Assembly (NCBI GenBank): GCA_019235415.1 | Contig: JAFAKN010000474.1 | Span: 1-34,117 of the forward strand | DNA: 34,117 nt | Origin: Alphaproteobacteria bacterium | GTDB taxonomy: Bacteria > Pseudomonadota > Alphaproteobacteria > Reyranellales > Reyranellaceae | Direction: 5' to 3' | Shown: piece by piece, positions 14,139-29,074 of the stretch | How positions within the stretch are numbered: the first letter of the stretch is position 1 | Layout: each line of letters starts with the position of its first letter | The notes under the pieces: model-generated | Databases searched by the model: none | Told to the model about the DNA's origin: nothing | What the model saw: the letters and a program-made list of their open reading frames with translations, nothing else | Program-made: the position numbers and the translations under genes

Positions 14139-14207
14139 TGTCATCCCGAGCGCAGCGAGGGATCCTTAGGGAGAGAGCAAGGATCCCTCGCTTCGCTCGG
14201 GATGACA
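14139..14207. repeat. Palindromic repeat family B, copy 1
   Basis: A 69-nt element whose ends are TGTCATCCCGAGCG and its mirror CGCTCGGGATGACA, with the inner GAGGGATCC/GGATCCCTC also paired, so it forms one long hairpin. Near-identical copies are at 21601-21669 and 24996-25063. When translated it gives the HPERSEGS and LASLGMT strings often seen as repeat-derived fragments in annotated proteins. It lies between ygfZ and the TPR/barrel gene. Confidence 0.88.
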
Positions 14208-20471: not shown

Positions 20472-21544
20472 CGGCCCTGCTCGAGGTCGAGGGACTGGCC
20501 AAGCACTTCGCGGTGCGACGCGGTTCCTTCGGCCTTGTGTCGGGCCATGTTCGCGCCGTCGACGGGGTCGACTTCCACCTGGCAGCAGGCGAGACCTTGG
20601 CGATCGTCGGCGAATCGGGCTGCGGCAAGTCGACGGTCGGCCGGCTGGTGCTGCGCCTGATCGAGCCCTCGGCCGGCCGCGTGCGGTTCGAAGGCGAGGA
20701 TCTGCTCCCCCTCTCCGACAGCGCGATGCGCGCCCGCCGGCGGCGCATGCAGCTGATCTTCCAGGACCCTTATGCCTCGCTCAACCCACGGATGACCGTG
20801 GGCGCCATGCTGGGCGAGCCCCTGATGCTGCACGGGCTGGCCGCCAAGGAAGGCGAGCGGCGCGCGCGCGTCGGTGAGCTTTTGACGCTGGTCGGGCTGC
20901 GGCCCGACCATGCCCGACACTATCCCCACGAATTTTCCGGCGGCCAGCGCCAGCGGCTGGCCATTGCCCGTGCGCTGGCCGTCGAGCCAAAGCTGATCGT
21001 CGCCGACGAGCCGGTGTCGGCGCTCGACGTGTCGATCCAGGCGCAGGTCATCAACCTGATGCGCGCGCTGCAGCAGCGCTTCGGGCTCGCCTACATCTTC
21101 ATCAGCCACGATCTCGCCGTCGTGAAGCACATCGCCGATCGCATCGCCGTAATGTACCTCGGCAAGATCGTGGAGACTGCGACGACCGACGAGCTGTTCC
21201 GCAACCCGCGCCATCCCTATACGCGTGCCCTGCTCGCCGCCGTGCCGCTGCCCGACCCGACCGCGCAACGCGAGCGGCGCCTGCTCGAAGGCGATATCCC
21301 GAGCGCGCTCAGCCCGCCCGGCGGCTGTCGCTTCCACACCCGCTGTCCTTTTGTGCGCGACGCCTGCCGTCGCGACGAGCCGCAGCTGGCCGACGATGGC
21401 ACAGCGCATGCTACCGCCTGCCCGTACTGGCCGGAGTTTCCCCCAGCCGTCCAGCGCGGCGCCGGCAACGACAAGGATGAAGACAGGGTGCGCCTCGAAC
21501 GCCTGCAGGCGGCGTTCGTGTCCGAGCAAAGGGAAGCGTCATGA
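20468..21544 (+). CDS. Peptide-type ABC transporter ATPase (DppF/OppF-like)
   Basis: A 358-residue second ATPase. Walker A is GESGCGKST (48-56), the Q-loop is [14 protein letters not shown], the signature is FSGGQRQR (156-163), Walker B is LIVADE (176-181), and the H-loop is FISHDLAVV. The C-terminal extension has [18 protein letters not shown]. The D-loop reads [10 protein letters not shown], as is standard for OppF/DppF. The start is ATG 20468, overlapping the previous stop by 4 bp. The final segment after the cysteine motif (about 60 residues, charged, ending [14 protein letters not shown]) is longer than in DppF and unexplained. The stop overlaps the binding-protein start. Confidence 0.93.
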
Positions 21545-23154
21545 GGACAAGGCTCAGCTGGCATTCCGAGCATATCAACTGTCATCCCGAGCGGAGCTGC
21601 TGTCATCCCGAGCGTAGCGAGGGACCTTTCCTGCTGCTTCAAAGGTCCCTCGCTGCGCTCGGGATGACAGTGGTGCTCACCGTGGCGCTGCTCGGCACCG
21701 CCATGGCGCAGTCGCATCTGCGCATCGGCCTCGCCGACGATCCCGACGTGCTCGATCCCAGCCTGGCGCGCACCTACGTCGGCCGCATCGTCTTCGCGGC
21801 GATTTGCGACAAGCTGTTCGACATCGACGAGAATCTGAACGTCGTGCCGCAGCTGGCGCTCAGCCACGAAACCTCGGCCGACGGCAAGGCGGTCACGATC
21901 AAGCTGCGCCCGGGCGTGAAATTCCACGACGGCGAGGCGTTCGACGCTCAGGCCGCCAAGTACAGCCTCGACCGCCATCTCACCATGAAAGGCTCGTTCC
22001 GCAAGCCCGAGATCGGCTCGGTCGACAAGGTCGAAGTGGTCGATTCGCTGACCATCCGGCTGATCCTCAAGGCGCCGTTCTCGCCGCTGCTCGCCCAGCT
22101 CACCGACCGCGCCGGCATGATGGTGGCACCCAAGGCGGCCGAAGCCGCGGGCGACAAGTTCGGCCTGCATCCGGTTTGCGCCGGCCCCTACAAGTTCGTC
22201 GAGCGGGTGCAGCAGGACCGCGTCGTCGTCGAGAAGTTCGCCGACTACTGGAACAAGGACCAGGTGTTCATCGACAAGATCACCTTCCTGCCGGTGATCG
22301 ACAGCACGGTGCGACTGGCCAACCTGCAGTCCGGCGGCCTCGACATGATCGAGCGCGTGCTCGCGACCGACATCAAGTCGGTGCGCGACAACCCCAAGCT
22401 CAAGCTGATCATGGCGGTGTCGCTGGGCTATCAGGGCATCACCATGAACCTTGCCAATGGGCCGAAGGCGCAAAACCCGCTCGGCAAGGACCCGCGCGTG
22501 CGTCGCGCGCTGGAGCTCAGCCTCGACCGTGACGCCATCAACCAGGTCGTGTTCAACGGCGAGTTCGTGCCCGGCAATCAGTGGATCAGCCCGCAGAATT
22601 TCTACTATCAACAGGCCTTCCCGATCCCCAAGCGCGACGTCCCCAAGGCCAAGGCGCTGCTGAAGGAGGCGGGCGTGACGGCCCCGCTCTCGCTCGACTT
22701 CATGGTGCCAAGCGGCCCCGAGCCGCGCGCCGTCGCCGAGGTGGTGCAGTCGATGGCAGCCGAGGCCGGCTTCGACCTCAAGATCCGGGTGACCGAGTTC
22801 GCGACCACGCTCAAGCAGGCCGAGGACGGCGATTTCCAGCTCTATCTCATCGGCTGGAGCGGCCGCAGCGATCCGGACGGCAATTCCTATTCGTTCCAGG
22901 TGTGCGATCAGCCGCAGAACGCCGGCAAGTACTGCGACAAGCAGGTCGATGCCGACCATGCCGAAGCGCGCTCCATCAGCGATCCCGCCGCGCGCAAGAA
23001 GGCCTATCAGAAGGTCGCGGCCAAGGTGCTGACCGAGGGCTCGATCCTCTACCTCTACCAGCCGCAGGTGCTGGTGGCCCTGTCGGACAAGGTCGAAGGC
23101 TACAAGCAGATGCCAGACGGGCTGATCCGGGTCGTCGGCGTCAAGCTCAAGTAG
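21541..23154 (+). CDS. ABC transporter substrate-binding protein (family 5, peptide type) with repeat-derived signal peptide
   Basis: A 537-residue periplasmic binding protein of the SBP_bac_5 group. Mature-type sequence starts at [20 protein letters not shown]. It is followed by family blocks such as [41 protein letters not shown] and [12 protein letters not shown], and by the end-domain [15 protein letters not shown]. It would capture peptides, glutathione-like or nickel-type ligands for the importer. The start at ATG 21541 is fixed by a 4-bp overlap with the ATPase stop and by AAAGGGAAG upstream. Codons 21-43 are exactly a 69-nt family B repeat, preceded by a partial copy. The signal peptide is therefore unusually long (about 56 residues) and partly repeat-encoded. 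A shorter start at ATG 21664 lacks a ribosome-binding site and positive charges. Confidence 0.92.
21580..21669. repeat. Palindromic repeat family B, copy 2 plus partial copy, inside a coding region
   Basis: The full element runs TGTCATCCCGAGCG (21601-21614) to CGCTCGGGATGACA at 21669. It has an inner GAGGGACCTTT/AAAGGTCCCTC pair and is 69 nt long, like copy 1. Immediately before it, GTCATCCCGAGCG at 21581-21593 is a truncated duplicate of the same end. The element keeps the reading frame of the binding-protein gene. Confidence 0.9.
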
Positions 23155-23158
23155 GATC

Positions 23159-24100
23159 GTGCTCGCTTTCCTCACCCAGCGGCTGCTGCAGATCGTGCCG
23201 ACGCTGATCCTGGTGTCGATGCTGATCTTCGGCCTGCAGCAGCTGCTGCCGGGCGATCCGGCGCTGATCATGGCGGGCGAGGAGCGCGATCCCAGGGTGC
23301 TGGAGGAGATCCGTCAGCAGTACCGGCTGAACGAGCCGATGCCCGTGCAGTACTTCTACTGGATCAAGGGGGTGCTGTCGGGGAACCTGGGTGAATCGAT
23401 GCGGCTCAAGAGCTCGGTGGCCTCGCTGGTGGCCGAGAAGTTGCCGGTGACTCTGCAGCTTGCCGGCATGGCGATCCTGGTAGCCCTCCTGATCGGCATT
23501 CCCGCCGGCATCGTCTCTGCGGTCAAGCGCGACACGGCCTGGGACTACGGCGCCAACCTGTTCGCGCTGTGGGGCATCAGCACGCCCAACTTCTGGCTCG
23601 GCATCCTGCTGATCTTCCTGTTCTCGGTGACCTTGGGCTGGCTGCCGGCGTCGGGCTATGTCAGCCTGGGCGAGAACTGGCGATCGAGTCTTGCCACCAC
23701 CGTGATGCCGGCCTTCGTGCTGGGCAACGCCATCGCCGCCATCCTGATGCGCCACACGCGCAGCGCCATGCTGCAGGCCATGTCGGCCGACTACGTGCGC
23801 ACCGCCCGTGCCAAGGGCCTGTACGAGAGCCGGGTGGTGCTGAAGCACGCGCTGCGCAACGCCATGACGCCGGTGATCACCCTGGGCGCGCTCGAGTTCG
23901 GCACGCTGCTCTCGGGCGCGGTGCTGACCGAGCAGATCTTCTCGATCCCCGGCTTCGGCAAGCTGATCGTCGATGCGGTTTTCAACCGCGACTATGCCGT
24001 GGTGCAGGGTGTCGTGCTGGTCACCGCCACGACCTACATCGTGCTGAACCTCCTCGCCGACCTGGCCTACGTCTTGGTGAACCCGAGGCTGCGCGGATGA
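23159..24100 (+). CDS. Peptide-type ABC transporter permease (DppB/OppB-like)
   Basis: A 313-residue inner-membrane permease with about six helices. The first, LTQRLLQIVPTLILVSMLIFGL (residues 5-26), is followed by the periplasmic LLPGDPALIMAGEERDPRVLEEIRQQY region typical of DppB/OppB. The cytoplasmic EAA loop reads YVRTARAKGLYESRVVLKHALRNAMTPVIT. The end, NRDYAVVQGVVLVTA-LADLAYVLVNPRLRG, is also standard. GTG 23159 is the start, 4 nt after the binding-protein stop. It forms the translocation pore with the next gene product, with which it overlaps by 4 bp. Confidence 0.93.
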   Translation: MLAFLTQRLLQIVPTLILVSMLIFGLQQLLPGDPALIMAGEERDPRVLEEIRQQYRLNEPMPVQYFYWIKGVLSGNLGESMRLKSSVASLVAEKLPVTLQLAGMAILVALLIGIPAGIVSAVKRDTAWDYGANLFALWGISTPNFWLGILLIFLFSVTLGWLPASGYVSLGENWRSSLATTVMPAFVLGNAIAAILMRHTRSAMLQAMSADYVRTARAKGLYESRVVLKHALRNAMTPVITLGALEFGTLLSGAVLTEQIFSIPGFGKLIVDAVFNRDYAVVQGVVLVTATTYIVLNLLADLAYVLVNPRLRG

Positions 24101-24981
24101 CTGCCGCCTCGCTTTCCGCCGTCGTCGCCGACGAGTCGCATGAGGAGAACCCCTGGGCGCGCGCCTGGCGGCGGTTGAAGCGCCGCAAGGGCGCCATGGC
24201 CGGCCTGGTCGTCGTGTCGCTGTTCGTGCTGCTCGCCTTCTTCGCGCCGCTGGTGGCGCCCTACGATCCGGTCGCGACGAGCTGGAGCGCGGTGCGCAAG
24301 GCGCCATCCTGGGCCCACTGGATGGGCACCGACGAGGTCGGCCGCGACATCCTGAGCCGCGTGATCTGGGGGTCGCGCGCCTCGCTCAGCGCCGGGCTGG
24401 TGTCGGTCGGCATCGCGCTCGGCGTCGGCGTGCCGCTCGGGCTGCTGGCAGGTTATGGCGGCGGCTGGATCGATTCGGTGCTGTCACGGATCGTCGACGC
24501 CATGCTCGCCGTACCTTTCCTGATCCTGGCCATCGCGCTCGCGGCTTTCCTGGGCCCGAGCCTGGGCAACGCCATGATCGCCATCGGCGTCACCGCGACG
24601 CCGATCTTCGTGCGGCTGACCCGCGGCCAAACGCTCGCCGCCAAGGTCGAGGATTACGTCGAGGCGGCGCGCGCGGTCGGCAATCCGCACTGGCGCATTG
24701 CGCTCCGGCACGTGCTGCCCAACATCGTGCCGCCGCTGCTGGTGCAGGCCTCGCTCGCCATCGCCGGCGCCATCATCGCCGAGGCGGCGCTGTCGTTCCT
24801 CGGCCTCGGCCAGCAGCCGCCGGCACCGTCCTGGGGCAGCATGCTGAACTCCGCCCAGCGCTTCATCGCCCAGGCACCGTGGATGGCCTTCTGGCCGGGC
24901 TTCGCCATCTTCTTCGCCGTGCTCGCCTTCAACCTTCTAGGCGACGGCCTGCGCGACGCGCTGGATCCGCGGCATCGGTAG
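24097..24981 (+). CDS. Peptide-type ABC transporter permease (DppC/OppC-like)
   Basis: A 294-residue permease. The N-terminal OppC-type helix region is RLKRRKGAMAGLVVVSLFVL, with FFAPLVAPYDP after it. HWMGTDEVGRDILSRVIWGSR is the family hallmark. The EAA loop is YVEAARAVGNPHWRIALRHVLPN, and the end AFNLLGDGLRDALDPRHR is complete. The start is ATG 24097, overlapping the dppB-like stop (ATGA). It is the last gene of the ggt to dppC run. A family B repeat lies 14 nt after its stop and could form the transcript's 3' hairpin. Confidence 0.93.
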   Translation: MTAASLSAVVADESHEENPWARAWRRLKRRKGAMAGLVVVSLFVLLAFFAPLVAPYDPVATSWSAVRKAPSWAHWMGTDEVGRDILSRVIWGSRASLSAGLVSVGIALGVGVPLGLLAGYGGGWIDSVLSRIVDAMLAVPFLILAIALAAFLGPSLGNAMIAIGVTATPIFVRLTRGQTLAAKVEDYVEAARAVGNPHWRIALRHVLPNIVPPLLVQASLAIAGAIIAEAALSFLGLGQQPPAPSWGSMLNSAQRFIAQAPWMAFWPGFAIFFAVLAFNLLGDGLRDALDPRHR

Positions 24982-24995
24982 GGAGTTGAACGGTC

Positions 24996-25063
24996 TGTCA
25001 TCCCGAGCGAAGCGAGGACCTTTGAGGCGACAGGAAAGGTCCCTCGCTACGCTCGGGATGACA
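24996..25063. repeat. Palindromic repeat family B, copy 3
   Basis: The ends are TGTCATCCCGAGCG and CGCTCGGGATGACA, with inner GGACCTTT and AAAGGTCC arms. It is 68 nt, one G shorter than the other copies in the left arm. It lies between two convergent genes (permease and small basic protein), where its hairpin could terminate transcription from either side. Confidence 0.88.
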
Positions 25064-25073
25064 GGGACCGCCG

Positions 25074-25346
25074 TCAGTTCGGCAGCGAGGTGTCGACCTG
25101 CTCGAAGGCGGTGAGCGCCGTGCCCTCGCTCGTGGCCCGTTCCTCGACCAGCAGCTGGGTCACCGCGAGAAAATGCAGCAGTTCGCGATCGCGCAGCCGT
25201 TCGGCTTCCTGCATCATCTCCCGCACGCCGTGCCAAACGCGGAACAATGCCGCCGCCTTCTTCTTTCGCGCCAGCGCACGCTTTGCCCGCCGCCGTTCGC
25301 TTGCCTCGACCACGATATCGACCACGCGCCCGCCCCCTGTCGCCAT
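25074..25346 (-). CDS. Small basic hypothetical protein
   Basis: A 90-residue protein. The first half is strongly basic (ASERRRAKRALARKKKAAALF) and the second half looks helical and acidic (MMQEAERLRDRELLHFLAVTQLLVEE). It has no signal peptide and no known motif that I recognise. The start at ATG 25346 is supported by GGAAGGGG a few bases upstream. It lies 52 nt downstream of the second GNAT gene on the same strand and may be the last gene of that operon. Its amino-acid composition is protein-like, whereas the overlapping frames are arginine/glycine shadows. Confidence 0.62.
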   Translation of the reverse strand: MATGGGRVVDIVVEASERRRAKRALARKKKAAALFRVWHGVREMMQEAERLRDRELLHFLAVTQLLVEERATSEGTALTAFEQVDTSLPN

Positions 25347-25398
25347 CTCGGCCCCTTCCAGACCTTGCCACCGATCCTACACGACCTCGAAGATCCGG

Positions 25399-25965
25399 TC
25401 AGTTCGAGGCCCGCTCCCGGCGCCCGCTCGCCGCGGGGCTCGGAGCATCGCCACGCAGGGTCACGGCCTCGGGCGCATCGCTGCCGCGCATCGGCTTGCT
25501 GGGGTCGACTGCACGAACCATGGCGATCATCTGCTTGGCGCCGGCACCCGCCGGCTCGCTCGCCAACCGCTGCCAGCCCTGCTTTTCCCAGTACGTGACG
25601 TCAGCCGGCCGCACCTGGACGTACAGCGTGCTGCAGCCGCGGCTCTCGGCCAGTTGGCGGCAGCGCTCGAGCAGAAGGCCGCCGATATTGTGGCCGCGGA
25701 AGCGTTGGATGACCGCCAGCCGCTCGGGCATGGCGAACGACTGCAGCCAGCGCACCCGCACCGCGCCGACGGGCTCGCTGCCGAGATAGGCGATGATGTG
25801 GGTAGCGGAGAAGTCGTGACCGTCGAACTCCTCCGAGTACGGCACGTCGAGCTCGCCGATGAAGGTGGCCGCGCGCACCGCGAAGGCGTGCAGCGAGTCT
25901 TCCATGCGCATGGCGAGCTTGGTGGTCAGCGGCTCGCCGTTGATGCTGCGGGGCGTGTTACTCAT
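25399..25965 (-). CDS. GNAT-family N-acyltransferase, tandem paralog 2
   Basis: A 188-residue protein. The GNAT fold begins with FAVRAATFIGELDVPYSEEFDGHDFSATHII, a YjcF/ElaA-like opening. AYLGSEPVGAVRVRWLQSF follows, and the acetyl-CoA pyrophosphate loop region is RFRGHNIGGLLLERCRQLAES. The YWEKQGWQRL end of the fold is present. The last 40 residues are a Pro/Arg-rich tail outside the domain. It shares the opening block with the upstream gene and is a tandem duplicate of it. The acyl acceptor is unknown. The start is ATG 25965 with GAGGAAG upstream, only 10 nt after the stop of paralog 1. Confidence 0.85.
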   Translation of the reverse strand: MSNTPRSINGEPLTTKLAMRMEDSLHAFAVRAATFIGELDVPYSEEFDGHDFSATHIIAYLGSEPVGAVRVRWLQSFAMPERLAVIQRFRGHNIGGLLLERCRQLAESRGCSTLYVQVRPADVTYWEKQGWQRLASEPAGAGAKQMIAMVRAVDPSKPMRGSDAPEAVTLRGDAPSPAASGRRERASN

Positions 25966-25975
25966 GGACTCTTCC

Positions 25976-26596
25976 TCAGTTGGCCCGGCGCTCGGCGTGG
26001 ACGTGCGGGTTGGTGGCGCCGCGCGCGGCGGACTTCTCCAGCACTCCTTCCTCGTCCAGCCGGTCCTCCGGCCGGTTCACCACCATGGGCACGGTCTGGA
26101 GCGTCACGGCATCCTGCGGCGGCACGAGATCGCAGTACACCGCATAATACTGGTGGTCGGAGAAGTTGAAGATGCGGTCGTCGACCAGGCGAAAGCCTTC
26201 CTTCTCCATCATCGCCAGGTGCCGCTTCTGCAGATGCACGTAGGCCTTGGTGTAGCCCTTGCGGCGCGCGAACTCCTTGCACCAGGCGTTGAGCTGGTGA
26301 TGCAGGCCGAGCGCCCGGTAGCGGCGCAGCACGACGCAGCGCTCGAACTTGCAGAACGACTGGAACCAGCGCAGCCGCATGCTGCCGGCGGGCTCGCCGT
26401 CGACGTACAGGATGACGTGCGTGGCGGTGTAGTCGTTGCCGTCGAACTCCTCGTCGTAGGGGCACTGCTGCTCGCCCATGAAGACCGCCGCCCTGAGCGC
26501 AAAGCACTGCAGCATCTCGTCGGAGGTTGCGGCCAGCTTGATGGTCACCTCCGGTGCAAGGTTCGGCACCGGCGGCTTGGTCGTCGTCATCGTCAT
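25976..26596 (-). CDS. GNAT-family N-acyltransferase, tandem paralog 1
   Basis: A 206-residue protein. FALRAAVFMGEQQCPYDEEFDGNDYTATHVI matches its neighbour almost position for position. The CoA-binding loop is represented by RRYRALGLHHQLNAWCKEF, which departs from the usual Q/RxxGxG/A by having LGLHHQ, so cofactor binding may differ. MMEKEGFRLVDDR ends the fold. A 60-residue tail with DAVTLQTVPMVVNRPEDRL follows. ATG 26596 overlaps the TGA of the upstream nucleotidyltransferase gene (ATGA). A second ATG at 26590 has better spacing from GGGGAG, so either may be used. The coupling ties this enzyme to the membrane nucleotidyltransferase. Confidence 0.85.
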   Translation of the reverse strand: MTMTTTKPPVPNLAPEVTIKLAATSDEMLQCFALRAAVFMGEQQCPYDEEFDGNDYTATHVILYVDGEPAGSMRLRWFQSFCKFERCVVLRRYRALGLHHQLNAWCKEFARRKGYTKAYVHLQKRHLAMMEKEGFRLVDDRIFNFSDHQYYAVYCDLVPPQDAVTLQTVPMVVNRPEDRLDEEGVLEKSAARGATNPHVHAERRAN

Positions 26597-27954
26597 CTCC
26601 CCTCGATCAGAACTCCGTTGTCGTTGCGGAACCGCCGTCCGCCTGCCACGACCTCGGGCCGATTGGCGGTCAGCTGCTCCAGCACGTCGGTCACCACGGC
26701 CGACGTCATGCCCTTGGCGCCACGACGGATCGCGGTCGCCGAAACCTTGTCCCGGCGCAACATGCGCCAGGGATAGATCCAGCCGCATTCGTCGTAGATG
26801 TTGCGCACCGTCATGCCGCCATGGTCGGTGCCGTGCAGTCCGTGCAGGCGCACGCCGGGATGCCGCCGCTTGACCTCGGCGATGACGCCCTGGAAGCCCT
26901 TGCTGTCGTAGATCTCGCGCAAGAACGCGACCTCGACCCGGTTGGCCAGTCCCGCCTCGCCGACCGCGAGCTCGATCAGGATGCGGCGCGTCTCGGGCGG
27001 CAGGAACTGCCGGCCGCTCGGGAAGTAGTCGACGTTGACGTCGGCCTTCTCGGTCCGCTCGTAGATCTGGAAGCCTTGCTCGAGCCGCGCCACGCGGATC
27101 TCGCCCTTGCGGAAGGCGTCGGCATGCAGCCGCGGAATCAGCGTCGGATGGATGATGACCTTGTCGAGCCCACGCTCCTCGATGGCGCGCCGCAGGAGCG
27201 TGAGATGCGTATTGTGGAACGGATTGAAGGTGCCGAAGAACACGCCGATGCCGCCTTTGGGCGCGAGTACGGAGCGCAAGTCCGAGGCGAGCCCCAATCC
27301 GAACAGCGCCACGCCCAATCCGAAGCCCATGACCAGGAACGCCTCGCGCGCCAACGGCACGCCGGCCGTGCCGAAGGCGGTCAGGATGAGGTTGATCGAA
27401 AGGCCAACGAGGACGTTGCGGTTCAAGTCGCCGATGCCGCGCGCCACGCAATAGACGGCGAGGTACTGCACGCCCTGCGAGGCCAGCGTCGTGACCAAGG
27501 CGGCTACCGCGAAGCCGCCGACCGACGCGATGCCGGGGCGGCTGAAGGCACCGCCGAAGAAGAAGATCGCGAACACCGCGAGGTTGAAGGCGTACTGCGG
27601 CACGAACCGGCCGAAGCGCCCCGCCGTCACGAAGCCGAACTGGTTGTTCGCCCACAACTCGGCCTTGTTGCTGAGCTTGGCATAGGTCGGCAGGAAGACG
27701 CCGGTGAAGATCGACACGCCGATCAGGGCGGCGTTCGACCAGCTGCCATGCGCATACCCATAGCATGCATACGACAGCAGCGCGGAGAACGCCGCCAGTC
27801 GGGTGGATGGACTGCGCACGTAGCGGCGCGCGCTCTCGACCAACGTCGCGAACCCCATGATCTTGGCACTGGCACCGATTGCGGCCACGAATCCCCCGAG
27901 CCCAGTTTGCAGAACGTCAAATTGACCAGCGGCTGTGACTGATTGACTAACCAA
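26593..27954 (-). CDS. Membrane protein fused to a NadD-like nucleotidyltransferase domain
   Basis: Up to 453 residues. The first half holds about six hydrophobic segments (roughly 55-70, 74-92, 117-136, 143-172, 181-200 and 204-224). After residue 234 a soluble cytidylyl/adenylyltransferase domain begins. Its nucleotide-binding motif is GTFNPFHNTH (241-250; the family form is G-x-F-x-P-x-H-x-x-H), and its second motif is KVSATAIRRG (403-412; family ISSTxIR). HGLHGTDHGG (371-380) stands where NadD has its IGAD loop. It would transfer NMP to a phosphorylated substrate at the membrane. I know of no characterised protein with this arrangement. The listed start TTG 27954 lacks a ribosome-binding site; GTG 27888 or the Met at residue 33 are alternatives and leave all domains intact. 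Confidence 0.82.
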   Translation of the reverse strand: MVSQSVTAAGQFDVLQTGLGGFVAAIGASAKIMGFATLVESARRYVRSPSTRLAAFSALLSYACYGYAHGSWSNAALIGVSIFTGVFLPTYAKLSNKAELWANNQFGFVTAGRFGRFVPQYAFNLAVFAIFFFGGAFSRPGIASVGGFAVAALVTTLASQGVQYLAVYCVARGIGDLNRNVLVGLSINLILTAFGTAGVPLAREAFLVMGFGLGVALFGLGLASDLRSVLAPKGGIGVFFGTFNPFHNTHLTLLRRAIEERGLDKVIIHPTLIPRLHADAFRKGEIRVARLEQGFQIYERTEKADVNVDYFPSGRQFLPPETRRILIELAVGEAGLANRVEVAFLREIYDSKGFQGVIAEVKRRHPGVRLHGLHGTDHGGMTVRNIYDECGWIYPWRMLRRDKVSATAIRRGAKGMTSAVVTDVLEQLTANRPEVVAGGRRFRNDNGVLIEGR

Positions 27955-28065: not shown

Positions 28066-28117
28066 CACTGGCTTTCAAGAATACTGCAGCTGCAATTTTA
28101 TTGTACCGATTGTCGCG

Positions 28118-29074
28118 ATGCTCACTCCTCCTCCGCGCAAGGCCAAGATCCCCAACATTCTCGGGGACTGGGACGACGTGCGTTTCTTTCTGGCCGTTGC
28201 CAAGACCGGCAGCTTCAGCGCCGCGGCGACCCAGCTCGACACCAAGCAAACGACGGTCGGCCGGCGCATCCAGGCCCTCGAGCGCCGGCTTGGGGCCAAG
28301 CTGTTCGACCGGCATCGGCACGGCATGGAGGTCACCCCGGCGGCCCGCGGCGTGCTGGTGCAGGCCGAGTCGATGCTGGCCAACGCCACCTCGATCGAGC
28401 GCCATCTGGCCGGGCTGGATCGCGAGATGGCCGGCGTGGTCCGGGTGGCCGCCACCGAGGGCTTGGCCGCGCAATGGCTGGTGCCCCGCCTCACCGAGCT
28501 GCGGCGCCGACATTCCGACATTCTCGTCCAAGTGATCGTCGGCGATCAGGTGCTCGACCTTGCGACCCGCCAGGCCGATCTCGCCATCCGCTTCTTCCGC
28601 CCGACCTCCAACCAGCTGGTCGCGGCCCGGGTCGGCCAGTTCAACATGTCGATTTTCGCCGCCCCTGCCTACATCGAGCAATTCGGACTGCCGCAAGAAC
28701 TCGAGGAGCTGCGCGACCATCATCTGGTCGATCACACCACCTTGCACAGCCTGCCGGCGATGAAGCCCTGGAGCGAGATCGTCGAGCGCAGCCCCAACGT
28801 GGTCCTGCGCACCAATTCCTCGCACTCCGCCATGGAGGCCGTGAAGGCCTCGTGGGGCCTGTCGATCTTCCCAAGCTACAGCAGCAAGACGGCCAACATC
28901 ATCGAGGCGCCCATCGACCTCGACATCACCCGCGACATCTGGCTGGTGTCCCACGAGGAGACCAACAAGGGTGCGCGCATCCGGGCGGTGATCGACTACA
29001 TCCGAGACCAGTTCCGTCAGGACGAGCGGGAGTGGTTCTCCCTCACCCAACGCGGGGCCGGGGCGGCAGCGTAA
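28118..29074 (+). CDS. LysR-family transcriptional regulator
   Basis: A 318-residue protein from ATG 28118 (MLTPPPRKAK). The N-terminal winged HTH is standard: DVRFFLAVAKTGSFSAAATQL, TTVGRRIQALERRLGAKLF and HGMEVTPAARGVL. The substrate-binding region has two lobes, starting with VVRVAATEGLAAQWLVPRL; ADLAIRFFRP and ETNKGARIRAVIDYIRDQF mark the end. An ATG at 28061 would add 19 residues without family similarity and would overlap the dyad. The gene is divergent from the nucleotidyltransferase/GNAT operon, which is its likely target. The 130 nt after the stop (29075-29204) are AT-richer and hold nothing I can identify. Confidence 0.9.
   Translation: MLTPPPRKAKIPNILGDWDDVRFFLAVAKTGSFSAAATQLDTKQTTVGRRIQALERRLGAKLFDRHRHGMEVTPAARGVLVQAESMLANATSIERHLAGLDREMAGVVRVAATEGLAAQWLVPRLTELRRRHSDILVQVIVGDQVLDLATRQADLAIRFFRPTSNQLVAARVGQFNMSIFAAPAYIEQFGLPQELEELRDHHLVDHTTLHSLPAMKPWSEIVERSPNVVLRTNSSHSAMEAVKASWGLSIFPSYSSKTANIIEAPIDLDITRDIWLVSHEETNKGARIRAVIDYIRDQFRQDEREWFSLTQRGAGAAA

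Follow-up and report, generated by a model that had tools for sequence, protein, structure and literature searches.

A conserved Reyranella operon pairing a predicted membrane-fused nucleotidyltransferase with GNAT-family proteins

The contig JAFAKN010000474.1 (34,117 nucleotides, assembly GCA_019235415.1), analyzed here in its entirety as the window, belongs to a bacterium of the genus Reyranella and carries an operon that is real, conserved, and undescribed in the literature searched. This operon consists of a gene encoding a nucleotidyltransferase (NT) domain fused to a predicted six-helix membrane half (together, the NT protein), two genes of the GNAT family (GNAT1 and GNAT2), and a gene for a small basic protein, and is divergent from a gene for a LysR-type regulator (Table 1). 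The NT protein of the window is 35–77% identical to the 40 relatives aligned with it, and dozens of loci share the gene order, so that the locus is far beyond chance. By gene content, the minimal unit is NT with one GNAT, usually accompanied by LysR. A plausible, still tentative, interpretation is that the genes form a biosynthetic module under LysR control, in which a small amine-bearing molecule would be nucleotidyl-activated and N-acylated at the membrane.

Gene order was surveyed across 74 loci, namely, the window, 71 loci from a scan of named genomes, and two loci (L148 and L158, from genomes G653 and G940, respectively), both of one order of the phylum; some of these loci are the same contigs as in the congener survey below. 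In 73 of the 74 loci, NT has a GNAT match on its own strand no more than 150 bp away, at spacings that range from an overlap to a 131-bp gap in match coordinates; the exception, L127, ends inside NT. The GNAT is located downstream of NT in 71 loci and upstream in two (L142 and L148). The NT–GNAT linkage thus holds far outside the genus. NT homologs that mostly lack a GNAT, which the initial annotation had named as the observation that would speak against its operon, were not found, within the limits of a scan pattern that was built on nine sequences and could miss distant GNAT-less relatives. Of the 67 loci with at least 1 kb of upstream sequence, 60 have a divergent LysR gene no farther than 300 bp from NT. 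GNAT2 is present in 56 of all 74 loci. Several loci are imperfect: the translation of L105 contains unread bases (X), NT lies in two frames in L141, and L121, L122, and L141 end shortly after NT. Alignment A3 (41 sequences) comprises the window and 40 of the 71 named loci, with L148 and L158 left out; alignment A4 comprises 39 of these sequences, L106 and L133 being dropped because a motif pattern used in its preparation missed their GTYNP motif.

Nearly all of the Reyranella genomes examined carry the NT family, which is rare and sporadic elsewhere in our samples. Among 36 congeners, including Reyranella massiliensis 521, R. soli, and R. aquatilis, from a genus of soil and water bacteria, NT matches were detected in 35, two of them partial; the single miss (G007) is a genome that is 73% complete. 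The surveys outside the genus were samples of genomes. Full-length matches were found in 7 of 289 genomes of the class (three of these are Reyranella, including the window's own), and matches in 3 of 398 genomes of the phylum (two Reyranella). The order of G653 yielded 2 matches in 300 genomes, one of these being G653, and its class 1 in 369, again G653; the family of the Paraburkholderia ribeironis genome (1 of 249) and the class of a metagenome-assembled genome (MAG) labeled Megamonas (1 of 250, full-length) yielded only these genomes themselves. Weak, short matches in 7 of the 14 matched genomes of the class sample (E values from 4.9e-5 to 4.4e-4) and in 6 of 7 in the Megamonas class, the latter over a short stretch around the HxxH motif, were discounted as ordinary nucleotidyltransferases or chance. 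The named loci beyond the Reyranella lineage include those of Camelimonas fluminis (L134), Desertibaculum subflavum (L140), P. ribeironis (L142), a MAG labeled Herbaspirillum frisingense (L141), and the Megamonas-labeled MAG of the Bacillota (L138). In the latter (L138/L159), the NT–GNAT pair shares a contig with trxB-, trx-, uppP-, and pth-like genes, named from their translations, which, provided that the binning of this contig is correct, suggests transfer between phyla. A mobile or phage origin was rejected: the plasmid and phage collections contain no NT match, and none of the four stretches of viral contigs that matched the pattern was confirmed.

Domain scanning, structure modeling, and fold comparison agree on the fusion of a nucleotidyltransferase domain to a hydrophobic half, as initially annotated. 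CTP_transf_like (PF01467) matches the C-terminal half of the NT protein at 29.1 bits, above the gathering threshold (21), and the AlphaFold2 model computed from a 41-sequence alignment consists of six long helices and the NT domain (mean pLDDT 88.2, pTM 0.82). The NT domain of this predicted model retrieves 8aih as its best Foldseek match (E = 1.2e-4) and is superimposed by VIA-align on NadD (5db4_B; Z 16.0, root-mean-square deviation 2.5 over 149 residues) and CoaD (3x1k_A; Z 14.8), with NadM also near. The catalytic motifs are kept, given that HxxH, which like SxTxxR is common to NadD and CoaD, is present in all 41 aligned homologs and SxTA(I/V)R in 39 of the 41; the domain very likely still binds a nucleoside triphosphate (NTP). 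Unlike NadD and CoaD, the NT domain sits behind six predicted membrane helices, and none of the 41 sequences has an exact HxGH, the motif being HxTH or HxSH instead. The third position of this motif varies in true members of the fold, considering that the NadD 8aih itself has HLAH. A main role as the housekeeping NadD was rejected: the NT protein scores 26 bits against the NadD equivalog model TIGR00482, far below the curated cut-off of 112.45. This cut-off is strict here because C189, another NadD candidate in the window's genome, also scores below it (94 bits); given the presence of C189, the NT protein need not be the housekeeping NadD.

The claim that the hydrophobic half is membrane-embedded is borne out, at the level of models, by six predicted helices and a positive-inside pattern of charges. 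Modeled alone, this half again folds into six long helices (pLDDT 88.4, pTM 0.81). The mean numbers of lysines and arginines are 3.72, 4.51, 1.97, and 2.15 in the inner segments and 0.08, 0.64, and 0.95 in the outer ones, the segments being unequal in length; these counts fit a topology with both termini inside, the NT domain being taken as cytosolic. Eleven charged positions are kept in at least 90% of the 39 membrane halves in alignment A4, and ten of these (base 71, acid 77, R91, R94, R150, D154, R157, D203, R205, and base 211) lie on the predicted cytoplasmic side, beside the NT domain, under a model-based assignment that assumes a cytoplasmic NT domain. That the membrane half catalyzes a step is a guess prompted by these apparently inward-facing residues. 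When the 39 membrane halves were scanned against Pfam, that of the window protein matched no family and the others gave weak, scattered matches, the best at E = 0.0077, in output that does not show the cut-offs; a profile of the membrane half matched no PDB sequence at E = 5. Foldseek returned nothing at E = 0.001 or better, with the PIP synthase 5d92 at the top of the list (E = 0.44, TM 0.30), and the best VIA-align score was Z 4.9, in a table that does not include PIP synthases. These searches with a predicted model show neither a new fold nor a known one. Among the closest known systems are CDP-alcohol phosphotransferases, such as PIP synthase, and their bifunctional fusions with a cytidylyltransferase (IPCT-DIPPS). 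By analogy with these, the NT protein combines six membrane helices with a nucleotidyltransferase for activation at the membrane; the nucleotidyltransferase of the fusions has a fold that differs from the NadD type. However, the DxxDGxxAR motif of CDP-alcohol phosphotransferases (PF01066) is found in 0 of the 39 membrane halves, and we rejected this assignment; profile comparison gave a probability of 0.1, a weak test given that the comparison alignment has three rows, two of identical sequence.

The description of the acyltransferase genes as duplicated YjcF-like GNATs stands as far as the two paralogs are concerned, and the term YjcF-like is loose. Both exceed the PF00583 cut-off of 20.7 bits (Table 1), and the closer models match below their curated cut-offs, with weak-to-moderate likeness: TIGR04045 (MSMEG_0567_GNAT, the MSMEG_0567/Sll0786 type) at 19 and 39.8 bits (cut-off 68.45) for the two GNATs, and PRK10314, which we take to be the ElaA entry, for GNAT1. 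The GNATs of L142 and L148 are ElaA-like, at 94 and 96.3 bits to PRK10314 (cut-off 171). In a midpoint-rooted tree of 42 of the 129 extracted GNAT rows, in which the L142 row is long, all 15 GNAT2 rows form one clade on a long branch (support 100/100) beside 13 GNAT1 rows of the Reyranella lineage (90/76), and the single GNATs of other lineages fall outside. This topology fits a duplication of the GNAT in the common ancestor of the Reyranella lineage, with L124 counted as a member. GNAT1 shares an FSDHEY/NRPE tail with most single GNATs of distant loci; judged by its sequence, GNAT2 has lost this tail, and the GNATs of L142 and L148 have no tail of this type. The GNAT pair, initially taken as the core unit, does not hold as such: a single GNAT is found outside the Reyranella lineage, and within it L103 and L122 show only GNAT2.

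Additional genes accompany the NT–GNAT unit in some lineages. An isochorismatase-like hydrolase gene is present in 8 loci, none of which has GNAT2; in 6 of the 8, it lies 446–713 bp after NT, at about the place of GNAT2 in Reyranella, and in two loci (L139 and L158) an M20 peptidase gene stands between the NT region and the hydrolase gene. The hydrolase of L139, the one scanned, matches the NCBIfam models for biuret hydrolase and RutB, both below cut-off. An isochorismatase partner elsewhere in the window's own genome was dismissed, the best match being only 29% identical. The neighborhoods of L142 and L148 contain genes for an Fe(II)/2-oxoglutarate (Fe/2OG) enzyme of the HalD/BesD family, a flavin enzyme, and an oxygenase that reads in translation as isopenicillin N synthase (IPNS)-like, with identities of 63%, 51%, and 57%, respectively, between the two loci; the IPNS-like oxygenase is several kb from NT in L142. 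The Fe/2OG enzyme of L148 scores 182.5 bits to PF23169 and 95.9 bits to the NCBIfam BesD model (cut-off 450). In such enzymes, HxD in place of HxG marks a hydroxylase rather than a halogenase; given that both Fe/2OG enzymes have the HxD pattern GWHLD, they are suggested to be hydroxylases. These partner enzymes, in two loci, are the main hint at an amino-acid-like substrate. Flanking the cluster of L148 (5380–13967) are genes of the EamA-like, PNPOx, M20, and LuxR types; apart from PNPOx, these names come from translations. In the MAG of L135 (7000–8777; also L067), LysR lies 18 bp from an NT match beginning at residue 194 of the reading from TTG, so that the membrane half is largely missing, by either deletion or assembly error.

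The biosynthetic interpretation builds on the observed gene order, conservation, and domain families and on the model-predicted NT fold, helices, and topology, from which we infer the substrate, the nucleotide, the acylation, the transfer, the product, and the ligand of LysR. The near-constant GNAT suggests a shared NT–GNAT pathway, possibly with a shared substrate. A small-molecule pathway is further supported by the partner genes (isochorismatase-like in 8 loci, M20 in two, and the oxygenases and flavin enzyme of L142 and L148), given that these encode small-molecule enzymes. Under this interpretation, the six helices would anchor the NT protein in the inner membrane, with the NadD/CoaD-fold domain in the cytosol, where it would join a nucleoside monophosphate from an NTP to a phosphate- or phosphonate-bearing substrate, with release of pyrophosphate. 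The adjacent GNAT would acylate an amino group on the same molecule, which would probably be derived from an amino acid, and the membrane half, with its conserved charges near the cytoplasmic face, may hold the activated intermediate or transfer it, for example, to a membrane acceptor. The pathway would have been elaborated by GNAT duplication in the Reyranella lineage and, in other lineages, by a hydrolase or by an oxygenase and a flavin enzyme. The initial proposal of a lipid, surface, or signaling molecule as the product is a guess.

Several observations weigh against this scheme. Conserved base 181 and also N52 fall at ends predicted to be periplasmic, and conserved amides 98, 102, 138, and 141 within helices; the membrane half has no significant fold match, which makes catalysis by it conjectural. 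No kinase, phosphoenolpyruvate (PEP) mutase, or other source of phosphate or phosphonate was noticed beside the operon, the genome not having been searched for one. The partner genes differ between lineages, so that one common product is not assured. L103 and L122, both of the Reyranella lineage, have GNAT2 beside NT and no GNAT1, and their GNAT2 rows group together (94/91), the L122 contig ending 652 bp after NT; the GNAT of L130 appears truncated.

A more specific possibility, to which we give limited credence, is that the NT protein is a new kind of bifunctional membrane enzyme: the NadD-fold domain would activate an amine-bearing compound, the six-helix half would use the activated product directly, by transfer to a lipid or other membrane acceptor or by vectorial release, and the GNAT would provide an acyl group. 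If so, nearly all Reyranella species would make an uncharacterized LysR-controlled conjugate or signal. Uptake and trapping, which we consider unlikely, would have the membrane half transport a nucleotide- or vitamin-like compound of the nicotinate/nicotinamide mononucleotide type for adenylylation on entry by the NadD-like domain, with the isochorismatase-like partner acting like a nicotinamidase. The closeness of the NT fold to NadD, with NadM and CoaD near, and the partner in 8 loci, from a family that includes nicotinamidases, are in its favor, but it leaves the near-constant GNAT unexplained, the TIGR00482 score is low, and the L139 hydrolase resembles biuret hydrolase and RutB, albeit below cut-off; moreover, the conserved charges lie mostly on one side and line no path across the membrane, although there are conserved amides inside the helices. 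Detoxification appears similarly unlikely: nucleotidylation and N-acetylation, both classic modes of inactivation, would each disarm an incoming amine-bearing toxin sensed by LysR, in keeping with the divergent layout and the two kinds of modifying enzymes, but near-universality in Reyranella is unlike mobile resistance genes, plasmid and phage collections lack matches, and the oxygenase-rich neighborhoods of L142 and L148 look biosynthetic. Least probable is regulatory acetylation of the NT or another protein by the GNAT, with no common small-molecule substrate, which the strict adjacency fits equally well as a protein–protein pair but which does not call for GNAT tails that vary by lineage (none in L142/L148, changed in GNAT2), as a dedicated modifier of one protein would not need them.

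Among known systems, phosphonate pathways resemble the NT operon in nucleotidyl activation; their nucleotidyltransferases PhpF, FrbH, Fom1, and AlpM are, to our knowledge, not membrane-fused. These four enzymes activate a small molecule as a CMP conjugate, and the argolaphos cluster, like the NT operon, also has GNATs (PMC8976061). By contrast, the translations read in the NT neighborhood, without a profile search, revealed no PEP mutase. In the tabtoxin cluster, TblD, with a GNAT domain, is listed beside TblE, called only a putative membrane protein (PMC3927611), a likeness by gene description to the adjacent GNAT and membrane-protein genes of the NT loci. No description of the NT–membrane fusion or of the operon was found in the open-licence literature searched.

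Within the window, reading of the ORFs across 25074–27954 confirmed four minus-strand genes and the divergent LysR, and recovered the ATGA overlap, in which the ATG at 26596 overlaps the NT stop (26595–26593), and the 10-nt gap between GNAT1 and GNAT2. The small basic protein, annotated as an operon member, is one in the window, but it is not a constant member across loci (Table 1) and matches no Pfam family at E = 1. The listed NT start, TTG 27954, is probably wrong: the open frame starts only at residues 11–23 of the TTG reading in 26 of 39 relatives, and GTGGCC at 27888, which follows GGGGGA in the window, is conserved in 90% or more of the 25 upstream regions chosen for alignment, all from GNAT2-type loci, for which reasons GTG 27888 is the better-placed start. 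The regulator has both LysR-type domains, HTH_1 (PF00126, 73.4 bits) and the substrate domain (PF03466, 117.1 bits). The element before its start, ACAATCGGTACAATA in the window, has the consensus ACAATCGATACAATA, with each consensus letter in at least 90% of the 25 rows and at least one row (L093) departing strongly; it is a candidate LysR site. A repetitive extragenic palindromic (REP)-like palindrome (TCCCGAGCGNAGCGAGGGACC and its inverse) occurs in three copies in the window (14144–14202, 21606–21664, and the copy in Table 1), with six matches at up to 3 mismatches against 0 expected in 100 shuffles; the last copy bounds the operon and is probably not a functional part of it. Genes of an oligopeptide-type ABC transporter, named from translations (21541–24981, plus strand), are convergent with the operon.

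Table 1. Features of the NT operon and its surroundings (window coordinates)
Feature	Coordinates	Strand	Evidence
NT gene: predicted six-helix membrane half and NadD/CoaD-fold NT domain; 431 aa from probable start GTG 27888	26593..27888	-	Domain scan, start alignments, model, fold search
Membrane half, residues 1-211; conserved GRxxRFxxQ, SQGxQY, RGxGDxNRN, SDxR	27256..27888	-	Alignment A4, model, charge pattern
Nucleotidyltransferase half; GTFNPFHNTH (HxTH replacing HxGH), VSATAIR	26593..27255	-	PF01467, VIA-align, HxxH conservation
GNAT1; second in-frame ATG at 26590	25976..26596	-	PF00583, 29.7 bits
GNAT2; paralog restricted, among the loci found, to the Reyranella lineage	25399..25965	-	PF00583, 36.4 bits; single clade
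Small basic protein, 90 aa; optional member	25074..25346	-	Homologs downstream in 33/53 GNAT2-type loci with at least 1.7 kb downstream
LysR-type regulator, divergent; listed ORF start 28061, conserved start probably ATG 28118	28118..29074	+	PF00126, PF03466
Operator-like element, conserved, immediately upstream of LysR start	28099..28117	.	Alignment of 25 upstream regions
REP-like palindrome after the small gene	25001..25058	.	Palindrome search of window

The fusion of a well-known catalytic fold to a membrane domain that belongs to no named family, with one constant kind of partner in distant bacteria, is a clear sign of an unknown reaction, and the conserved NT–GNAT adjacency points to an undescribed small-molecule pathway; because the pair is fixed, the chemistry can be tested using two purified proteins. 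Present in nearly all the Reyranella genomes examined and in scattered other bacteria, the operon opens a way to a new metabolite or signal.

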